From: Nocardia sp. NBC_01730
Lineage (GTDB): Bacteria; Actinomycetota; Actinomycetes; Mycobacteriales; Mycobacteriaceae
Direction: 5' to 3'
Length of the DNA: 64,000 bases
Assembly (NCBI RefSeq): GCF_035920445.1
Contig: NZ_CP109162.1
Location: forward strand, 186,001 to 250,000
In this document: positions 51,852 through 60,299 of the stretch, piece by piece
How the letters are laid out: every line of letters starts with the position of its first letter
Position numbering within the stretch: position 1 is the first letter of the stretch
Notes under the pieces: model-generated
Database searches by the model: none
The model's input: the letters and a program-made list of their open reading frames with translations, nothing else
What the model was told of the DNA's origin: nothing
Translations under genes and position numbers: made by a program

Positions 51852-54800
51852 ATGGATTCGATCGCGTCGTATTGGTCTTGGATTCCGCCGGATATCTTGT
51901 CGGCCCTTAATTTTGGTGCGGAGTATCCCGAGGATGATGCGACGGATTATTTCGCGTTGGGTGATGAATATTTGAGGTTTGCGGCGCAGTTGTTGGTGTC
52001 GGAGCCGGATCTGAGGGCAGTGATGGATGCGACGCAGAAATTTTATGAGGGTGAGGGTGCTGTTGCGGTCGAGGCCGAGTTCGAGAAATTGCTCGAGGGG
52101 GAGTATTCGATCGAGGTGACGGCTCAGGGGTTCGAGGATCTCGGATTGTATACGCGGCAGGGTGGTACGGATATCGAGCGTACTCAGATCATCTTGGCGA
52201 TTTTTGCGGGGATAACGGCGTATACGGTCTTTTCGTTGCGGGCGATGGCGCCGTGGGGTCAGGCGGCGGTCCCATTGGCATTGATATCAGGTCGCCAAGC
52301 TGTTCGTTTCGGTGGTGAGTTGGGTATCGGGAGGTTGGCCCTGACAGCGGGGCGGGTGAGTTTGAAGAATCTGTTGAGACCGTATTCGAAGCAGATTGTT
52401 GTGGCGGGGTTGCGGATGGGTGGTGCGGGGGCGGGGCTGGAGTTGGGGGTCGAGGGTGCGCAGGTGGCGGTGGGCCATCGTGATGGTGGGATCGATTGGG
52501 GGCAGGTCGGGCGGACGTTTGTGGAGTGGGCTGCGGGTGGGTTCGCGGGTGTGCCTGCGGGCATATGGATGGGGCATCAGTTGGCAGGGGCGGCGTTGTC
52601 GCCGATCGCGAAGGGGTTGTGGCGGGGGGTGTTGGGGGGGTTCGTGGGTGCGCTGGCTATGTATGGGGCGGGCGTCGGTTGGCAAGTGGGGGCACAGTTG
52701 GTGCATGGCTATTTCGATTGGGGCAAGGTCGATGCGGCTGTGCACCGCGAATTGTTTGCGGCGGGTATGGGGTTGGGAGCGTTGCAGGGGATGCGGCAGG
52801 GGATGCCGGGGCTGAATTCGCCGGCGTTGGGTCGTGGTGAGGTGCCGTCGGCGGGTGGTGGTAGCCCGCGTGCACCGGCTGTTGTCACCGCGGAATCCCG
52901 GGCGGTGGGCACGATCCTCGCCCGTCAGCTCATCAAGGAAATGCATTCCGACACTACGGGGGCTGGGGAAGTCCGCGCCCCCAAATTCGCCCTCCGTGTC
53001 ACGGATATTGTCAACGAGGCAAATGCGCGGAATAAGGCAAACCAGTACAGCGACCAGCATGTAGTCGAACTGCGGGAATTGCGGGAAAGTTGGAGGGAAG
53101 GTGCCGCGGAGCCGCCGGCTCGTCGTGCGCCGGATAGACCGTTCACGGCGGGTGATGGTAGTTCGGCACCGCCCGCGGACGGTGGCGGCAGGTCGGCATC
53201 GTCTGAGGGCGCTGCGAGCCCGAGGGGTGGCGGGGCGGGATCGGCGACGCGAGGTGATGGGTGGGCTCCCGCCGAGCGAAGCGGCAGGTCGGGAACGGTG
53301 GCGCGAGGTGAAGGGTCGGCTCCGGCCGAGCGGAGAAATGGGTCAACAACAGCCGACCGAGGCGGTGTGTCGAAGCTGGTGAGGGCTCAGACGGCCGCTG
53401 GTGATGGAAGTGCGAGTATTGCCGGTGCGAGCCAGTCCGGGGCAACGGACGGTGCTGGGAATGTTGTTGCAGGGCAGCAGAGGACGCCAGCGGTCACAGA
53501 TCAGCATGCGGGGTCGGCGGTGTCGGATCGTTCTGGTGCGCAGGTGCCCTCGCCTGGTAAGGGTGTGCAGGCAGAGCCAGATGCGGGTACCGATCCGAAT
53601 CGTGGTGGCGAGGTTCGGCCCGTGGACCGGAGCGCGGCAGAGGCGCGGCAGGGGCTGGACGGTGGGGTCGGGGTGCGGGATACCTCGGCGTTCGTCTCGC
53701 ATGGGGCGTTGGCCGAGAAGTTCGCTTCTGCCGGGGTGGAGTATCGGCGTCCCGGCGCGGGGGAGGCGCCCTCGACGGGGGGTGAGGTGCCGGTGCTGGG
53801 AGGTGTGGAGCAGTTGCATTACGGCAGGGAGGTGTTGGGTCTCGAGGGGATTTTTCCGGTGACCGGTGACGGGGTCGCGCTCGGGAAGGTGGGGTTGGGG
53901 ACACAGGCATGGGCGGAAGCTGCCGGTGGCGATTGGCATCCTGGTTCCGGGCATCGCCAGGGCTTGGAATCGTTGGATGCGGCCGCCGGCCGGGTGCGGG
54001 ATTCGGGTGGGGTGTTCCTCGGGCTGGTGGAGGGAGCGGGGAGTGTGCGTTCGGTGACATATTTCTCGCATCCGGATCGCCGAGGTGTGGTGGTGGTGCG
54101 TGAGTGGAACGGGGAGAAGGCGTTCGAGTACCTGTATGAGAGGGGGCAGGAGCAGCCTGTCGGGGACAGGGTGTACGGGATCTTTTATGGCGCTGACGGG
54201 TGTGCAGTGCGTCCGTTGGGGTTGGGGGAAAAGCCGTTGGGGAAGGCGGGTGTGGAGCACCCGTATGCCCGCAAGACAGGTCCTTCCCCTCAGGCGGCGG
54301 GGTCGGCCCGGCCGTCGAAGACTGTGCGGATCGAGTTGGGGGAGCAGGACGCACCGGCGCCGCATCGGCGGGCGGGTGTCGGTGGGCCCCGCGGCGACGG
54401 CAGCTCCGGCTCGCCGACAGGCAACGGGGTCGCCGGGACCGGACTGCCCAAGGGGGCTGATCCGATGCCTGCCGCCGTGGATCGGGGCAGTGTCGATATG
54501 GGTCGGCTGCTGCGCAGCTGGGCGCAACACCCCGTAGCGACGACATGGCGGGGCGAGAACACCAGCGTGGTGTTCTGCCCGGACTTCCCCGCCCCGGGTG
54601 CCACCGCGGGCGAACATTCCTCCGCCGCCGGTCAACTGTTCGACCAGGGTTTCCGCGCAGGGGCGGACACCGGCGGACTGGTCTACACCCTCGAATCTTT
54701 GAGTGCGGCCATACAATTCGGTACCGAACGTATCTATGTCATCGACGCCCCTGGCGGGTTCCGCCAGCACGGCGCGAGTGTGGACGGACACACGCTGATC

Positions 54801-60299: not shown

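Follow-up and report, generated by a model that had tools for sequence, protein, structure and literature searches.

The TAL effectors of Xanthomonas are delivered by type III secretion, have a plant target, and carry a payload that binds DNA and changes transcription. The N-terminus of CpnT of Mycobacterium tuberculosis is WXG100-like, and the YezG family corresponds to DUF600. CpnT is reportedly exported by ESX (type VII secretion) without a Sec signal, shares an operon with an immunity factor and requires ESX-4 for export (PMC8593097), while YezG is the immunity protein to YeeF in Bacillus subtilis (PMC7033585). Further sources list DUF600 (Imm36) as an immunity family and tabulate a Tox-HTH class linked to the type VII secretion system (PMC3482391), describe EspL, with a predicted YbaB-type domain, as stabilising EspE, EspF and EspH (PMC6319747), and report that the giant genes for the Giant1-5 proteins of Apilactobacillus kunkeei make up 6% of its genome (PMC12863079). 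The subject of the present analysis is an effector-like gene at positions 51852 to 60299, on the forward strand, of a 64,000-nucleotide stretch (the window) of Nocardia sp. NBC_01730. The protein joins a WXG100_2 leader to eight recognisable helix-turn-helix (HTH) units, after which comes a sigma-70-like module comprising regions 2, 3 and 4. Judged from its leader, its partner gene, its mobility and its mosaic relatives, the module to which it belongs is quite probably one of an ESX-linked class of polymorphic effectors.

The frame begins with ATG and is open for 2,815 codons, and each of the remaining five frames across it contains 26-61 stops. GC content at third codon positions (GC3) exceeds that at second positions (GC2) in nine of the ten 300-codon blocks, the sole exception being the low-complexity linker of codons 301-600. 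A chance GC-rich frame is ruled out by the stops in the other frames and by homologues at both ends; a fusion of two genes in the window genome alone is ruled out by the fused leader and C-terminal cassette of other Nocardia regions. The initial annotation had described a single frame joining an ESX-type leader to an HTH array and a sigma module, a description borne out by Pfam, phmmer and a family profile. With the whole protein as query, GerE was matched at E 5e-44 in five stretches, and HTH_31, HTH_3 and Sigma70_r4 were above cut-off. The only identical match in the searched database, protein P0002, begins at residue 591 and is therefore without the leader, so that the fusion may have been overlooked.

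Within the first 340 amino acids (aa), WXG100_2 (PF25547) scores 33.9 bits over residues 22-138 against a cut-off of 27 (28.4 bits using the whole protein). Alignment shows the Gly-rich hydrophobic stretch that follows to be common to other leaders. The closest leader found, that of P0005 from N. terpenica, is 45.5% identical over 301 aa and itself matches WXG100_2 at 67.5 bits; in this 2,733-aa protein, two copies of the Pfam family 'glycosyltransferase in conflict systems' follow the leader. P0010 of N. paucivorans (2,863 aa), which has a LuxR array, is 26% identical to the window leader over 419 aa (E 3e-21). The window genome has three EccB genes above cut-off, EccB being the only ESX component sought.

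The HTH region was scanned against Pfam as ten cut pieces. At a threshold of E <= 0.01 eight of them matched an HTH family, with scores above the curated cut-off in six cases, and two (1680-1770 and 2130-2210) matched no HTH family in Pfam. The array comprises one GerE/sigma-4-like, four LuxR-type and three XRE-type units (Table 1), and the earlier count of at least nine HTH segments is reached when sigma region 4 is added to these eight. LuxR units 3 and 4 have 35 of 56 residues in common, compared with 16-24 of 55-63 in the other five pairs, so the internal duplication suggested earlier is likely. The near-identical sequences AGMVAIA(I/L)R(S/A)GIL, which had been taken for linkers, are by our reading the end of the LuxR/GerE domain, part of which is covered by the Pfam match of unit 4. 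LuxR unit 2 and XRE unit 3 are diverged and fall below cut-off. Such divergence would suit a serious rival explanation, possible if somewhat doubtful in our estimate, that assigns the HTH and sigma parts a structural or decayed role: they would be captured and duplicated cellular segments in a fast-recombining giant, serving as folded spacer or scaffold with no action on DNA, and the activity would lie elsewhere or have been lost.

The sigma module bears on this question. A profile made from 22 family copies, the window copy among them, spans regions 2-4 in its matches to RpoS, SigA, RpoD and FliA, with E values from 1e-13 to 4e-13. By phmmer, residues 2582-2811 align with FliA (E 6e-4), and the best stretch for TIGR02937 is residues 2590-2808. 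Sigma-70 factors use a Gln of region 2.2 in core binding. The corresponding position is Gln in 19 of the 22 copies (window copy included), His in two and Ser in one, a pattern that argues against a mere spacer. The PhyR family of sigma-like mimics is matched at E <= 1 by three of the 22 modules (the best at 0.0023), which, together with the many DNA-binding folds per protein, is what one might see if the cassette were a mimic or adhesin that binds anti-sigma factors, regulators or extracellular DNA and does not direct transcription; as regions 3 and 4 are present too, and the profile finds genuine sigma factors at 1e-13, we regard this as quite improbable.

Recurrence of the gene was followed with its C-terminal cassette (residues 2150-2815), which at a threshold of 1e-10 was matched in 45 of 148 Nocardia genomes. 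All but one of the 100 matches lie in frames of at least 1,289 aa, the remaining one being in a 447-aa frame. Frames were read in 17 regions from 15 genomes picked among these matches; three frames or regions (G100, G052a and one G097b frame) touch a contig or stretch end. A cassette-bearing frame begins with a leader in 15 of the 17 regions, the exceptions being G036 and G085; the leader was detected by BLAST at E <= 1e-4 in 14 regions and in G097b through its 85% identity with that of G089, and in G139 and G023 it is preceded by about 147 residues of the upstream frame. Both ends are thus kept together in these 15 regions, and the refuting condition set by the initial annotation, homologues always splitting into two genes, fails, though splits exist. 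In G085 the cassette frame, whose 5' part was examined, has no detectable leader and is separate from the preceding frame, and in G142 a 4,083-aa cassette frame without leader lies directly downstream of a leader frame. A stand-alone XRE and sigma frame of 445 aa, also without leader, was seen in G036 (C3:791109-792446) and is possibly an ancestor of the cassette or an escaped piece of it.

Leader-bearing frames in the 17 regions range from 1,346 to 32,449 aa, with up to three cassettes within one giant. In six giants the alignment with the window protein extends over 815-1,245 columns and keeps the succession of HTH array, XRE and sigma, which speaks against a mere spacer or scaffold. At the short end, the tandem frames of G097 (1,346 and 1,513 aa) have at E <= 1e-3 only WXG100_2 (33.0 and 36.2 bits, above cut-off) and HTH-type families, and a 1,981-aa frame of G089 combines HTHs with a 37.8-bit match to sigma region 3; leader and cassette can therefore stand alone. 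Among 397 genomes of the order, covering 85 genera, the cassette was matched at E <= 1e-15 only in the window genome, and at least nine further Nocardia of this sample were likewise without a match. Spread beyond Nocardia is therefore not supported (1/397 genomes, 1/85 genera). Spread by plasmids is not supported either, the cassette being without match in a plasmid collection (phage records lay outside this search).

The gene belongs to a four-gene module that sits in an insertion. The site is empty in 13 of 16 relatives, in which homology reaches 48,674-48,685 and starts again from 60,310-60,333, with 25-283 bp between; the remaining three have no match to the 167-aa gene downstream. A tblastn search with the partner, the WXG100-like protein, the YbaB protein, the leader and the cassette gave no match in any of the 16 relatives' stretches (9.2-20 kb). 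The inserted DNA has a GC content of 0.648, compared with 0.667 in the preceding 20 kb. The order of partner, WXG100-like gene, YbaB gene and giant is also found ahead of a 32,449-aa frame elsewhere in the genome, and small WXG100-like genes occupy the equivalent place in other modules (the G042 version has 577 aa and scores 23.8 bits). Partner homologues were found in 146 of 148 Nocardia genomes, and 18 of 20 partner-homologue loci have a same-strand open reading frame of at least 2,700 aa within five called genes. Across 17 family loci, the window counted and some cut by contig ends, partner homologues are adjacent or one gene away in five and YbaB homologues adjacent in eight. Given the precedent of EspL, a chaperone role for the YbaB gene is plausible. 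Downstream, at 61142-62542, a leuA-like gene is broken across several frames where relatives match over one longer stretch, and it is probably a pseudogene.

This setting also bears on the two readings that the initial annotation had left side by side, a delivered effector and an intracellular regulator with a borrowed ESX leader. The latter would be a multi-site transcription factor kept in the producer, with its leader anchoring it at the ESX machine or the membrane. It would agree with the recognised C-terminal parts being bacterial transcription folds, and with the leaderless 445-aa frame of G036. It sits poorly with an insertion accompanied by a partner gene, with mosaic paralogues, and with relatives whose similar leaders are joined to glycosyltransferases or other enzymes, and we consider it quite improbable. 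Because of the insertion, the partner gene and the polymorphic relatives, the exported effector is favoured, although its export and its action on transcription are themselves inferred.

Table 1. Features of the window and giant frames of the same genome (C1, contig handle; positions otherwise in the window)
Feature	Position	Strand	Basis or size
Insertion, ~11.6 kb, holding the four-gene module	48686..60321		blastn of flanks, tblastn gene order
Partner gene, 572 aa, with weak YezG likeness; putative immunity protein or chaperone	48939..50657	+	PF04634 14.4 bits, cut-off 21.7
WXG100-like small protein, 104 aa	50923..51237	+	PF06013 15.8 bits, cut-off 27.3
YbaB/EbfC-family protein, 168 aa	51294..51800	+	PF02575 35.8 bits, cut-off 25.5
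Leader	51852..52856	+	WXG100_2 residues 22-138, then Gly-rich hydrophobic stretch to ~residue 335
Domain of residues 616-808	53697..54275	+	phmmer against P0009 copies; recurs in giant proteins
Weakly ADP-ribosyltransferase-like (Scabin-like) domain	54426..54899	+	PF22596 18.6 bits, cut-off 27
HTH unit, GerE/sigma region 4 type	56730..56873	+	PF00196 25.3 bits
LuxR-type HTH 1	57399..57557	+	PF00196 39.2 bits
LuxR-type HTH 2, diverged	57630..57770	+	PF00196 21.4 bits, cut-off 23.5
LuxR-type HTH 3	57819..57965	+	PF00196 34.3 bits
LuxR-type HTH 4	58020..58184	+	PF00196 61.8 bits
XRE-type HTH 1	58752..58907	+	PF13560 27.5 bits, cut-off 27
XRE-type HTH 2	59013..59162	+	PF13560 29.8 bits
XRE-type HTH 3, weak	59319..59417	+	PF13560 21.5 bits, cut-off 27
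Sigma-70-like module, regions 2, 3, 4	59595..60284	+	Family profile, Pfam, phmmer, TIGR02937
Own-genome giant	C1:1970700-2068049		32,449 aa
Own-genome giant, longest	C1:6936835-7093056		52,074 codons
Further own-genome giants			36,589; 17,606; 17,118; 6,034 codons

At least seven frames of this module class occur in the window genome, the window gene being the smallest of those read. Together the seven amount to 164,685 codons, or about 5.7% of the genome, five of them being counted stop to stop. The further modules were found via homologues of the partner gene (nine matches in the genome); a pattern scan of the genome contigs gave seven matches, none of which was confirmed. GC3 is above GC2 throughout the 32,449-aa and 52,074-codon frames. 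In a comparison of five giants that predates completion of the two longest frames, the early parts are mostly 92-100% identical over 1 to 3.4 thousand aa and 85-89% identical at the linker; beyond them the same proteins diverge, with best matches per 1,000 aa that are 28-85% identical, mostly 30-60%. The window leader is of a different subtype, 31-32% identical to that of the 6,034-codon frame. Two modules, of 17,606 and 52,074 codons (C1 2.95 Mb and 6.93 Mb), have the leader in another frame than the body, which may reflect phase variation, decay or sequence error. An intact paralogue has a short tandem-repeat tract after the leader, and intact copies of giant modules exist. The 52,074-codon frame ends about 13 kb ahead of a match to WXG100, and an EccB gene follows closely. 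Pfam recognises no family in residues 1-9349 of the 32,449-aa giant, and one, one and two families in the next three pieces (the last 3,099 residues were outside the scan). Domains of peptidase M3, amidase, GNAT and phosphopantetheinyl transferase were recognised in the part from about 25,700 to 28,100, and this mixture of HTHs with enzyme domains is a point in favour of the HTH and sigma parts being captured segments.

Selection was examined in five close pairs of relatives as the ratio of nonsynonymous to synonymous substitution rates (dN/dS, NG86), excluding high-scoring segment pairs of <= 60% identity or <= 150 columns. Regional values of 0.23-0.41 indicate purifying selection. In the four pairs with aligned cassette codons, the cassette has values of 0.30, 0.37, 0.27 and 0.23, which in three pairs are lower than in the rest and in the fourth nearly the same (0.37 vs 0.35), contrary to what a spacer with no action on DNA would suggest. 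Four ordinary neighbour genes gave pooled values of 0.17-0.19 in four pairs (single genes 0.08-0.25).

Two domains lie between leader and array, and at most they are weak or decayed relatives of toxins. Residues 616-808 match two domain copies of P0009 from N. puris (137.5 and 59.7 bits by phmmer), and Pfam at E <= 1 has no family for them or for the corresponding part of P0009. By our reading, an NC motif and a His give the first P0009 copy a papain-like look; the window copy has neither the Cys nor the His. A papain-fold toxin (Tox-PL1/PF15644) was considered and withdrawn, there being no Pfam family at either place; the PF15644 matches in the 32,449-aa giant, moreover, do not overlap the matches to this domain. 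Counted as a match to either P0009 copy at domain E < 1e-4, the domain occurs in 5 to 12 copies in each of five own-genome giants, two of which were then cut off. P0009 (3,336 aa, partial) also matches sigma region 4 in eight stretches and contains an ATPase domain of histidine-kinase-like type. The ADP-ribosyltransferase-like domain (residues 859-1016) aligns also with two parts of P0010. A catalytic Glu is expected before the FPGG motif in such ADP-ribosyltransferases. In the alignment it is seen neither in the window domain nor in either P0010 copy, and middle domains without the expected residues would again accord with spacers. Elsewhere in the gene, two-copy tandem repeats occur at 53229-53332 (54 bp) and 55214-55298 (42 bp). 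A run of six arginines at residue 1243 was considered as a nuclear signal and dropped, nothing further backing it. Cysteine makes up 0.19-0.35% of the window gene and six own-genome frames (two incomplete at the time), and the comparison value of 1.08% comes from 54 rough gene calls in the window, some surely spurious.

As a mechanism, the WXG100-like and YbaB proteins would assist in guiding the leader to an ESX machine, the Gly-rich hydrophobic stretch would aid passage through the membrane, and the 572-aa partner would protect the producer. The likely payload would be the C-terminal cassette of LuxR-type HTHs, XRE-type HTHs and sigma regions 2-4, no intact enzyme domain being recognised. 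The recipient would most likely be a related actinomycete, in whose cells the cassette could bind DNA and core RNA polymerase and disturb or redirect transcription. That the gene encodes a mobile ESX-linked polymorphic effector whose payload works on transcription is a tentative proposal, which we would place somewhat short of an even chance. Its fullest form is unlikely as a whole: Nocardia would pass an entire sigma factor, together with DNA-binding arrays, into other cells via ESX, as payload of a mobile effector-immunity module, at the small end of a genus-specific giant family of up to about 52,000 codons.

Several observations weigh against the effector proposal. Export, binding and toxicity are predictions, and it is difficult to imagine type VII transport of proteins whose frames run to tens of thousands of codons. 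YxxxD/E motifs number four in the effector against 7.8 expected from composition, and the leader has a single one, YPEDD at residue 25; the first 330 aa of other proteins contain none (P0007, P0008, P0010) or two (P0005). CpnT carries a motif of this kind at Y88. The YezG match is under cut-off in four of five partners scanned and missing in one, and no enzyme or toxin family of Pfam is above its own cut-off in the window protein. The sigma module alone is below Pfam cut-offs (r4_2 21.5 bits, r3 19.6 bits), and leaderless cassette frames exist (G036, G085, G142). The dN/dS values are those of relatives, the nearest cassette relatives of the window gene being 49-51% identical to it; single 300-codon windows vary from 0.08 to 0.75, and selection on the giants is weaker than on the four ordinary genes, which would also be in keeping with the parts being spacers.

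The earlier statement that no system of this layout has been described holds in that the titles and abstract starts of open-licence papers, preprints excluded, yielded no description of a leader, HTH and sigma family; the gene is, however, no singleton, given its recurrence in Nocardia. Nocardia is absent from the main text of a survey of huge proteins (PMC11573180), and giant, ESX and type VII are all absent from the text of a Nocardia genome paper (PMC3670865). Apart from the effector reading, the giant frames and the purifying selection on relatives raise the question of how such proteins are made, moved and used. If that reading is true, transcription would be a target of type VII effectors, via a delivered sigma factor instead of an enzyme. 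The window protein is a small member of a family of very large Nocardia proteins, which may act on other cells' gene expression.

Compared with known systems, the share of the genome taken by giant genes recalls Giant1-5, although those are extracellular surface proteins of 3,000-8,000 aa from consecutive genes, for which the available part of the source mentions neither ESX leaders nor HTH arrays (PMC12863079). The WXG/LXG polymorphic toxins, as far as covered in the consulted part of PMC3482391, resemble the locus in a common trafficking N-terminus, a variable remainder and a neighbouring partner gene. A conserved N-terminus with a variable remainder was found in the five own-genome giants, and variable presence as a module in the empty sites of 13 of 16 relatives; a recognisable intact toxin domain was not found by Pfam or alignment. 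In the consulted part, Tox-HTH is a toxin domain and not an array with a sigma module, and the term 'Sigma factor' is absent from the first 300,000 of the paper's 357,715 characters (PMC3482391). YeeF and YezG are likewise a polymorphic toxin and its immunity protein (from the portion of PMC7033585 consulted), whereas the window partner is a 572-aa protein with only weak YezG likeness, and the effector has no recognised nuclease domain. CpnT is matched by the N-terminal WXG100_2 and by the presence of the ESX machinery gene EccB in the genome. It differs in ending in the TNT toxin where the window effector ends in HTH and sigma families, and in having three YXXXE motifs, two of them needed, where such motifs are sparse in the window effector (PMC8593097, in part). 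With TAL effectors, finally, the proposed effector would share a way of working only, by means of an unrelated fold.
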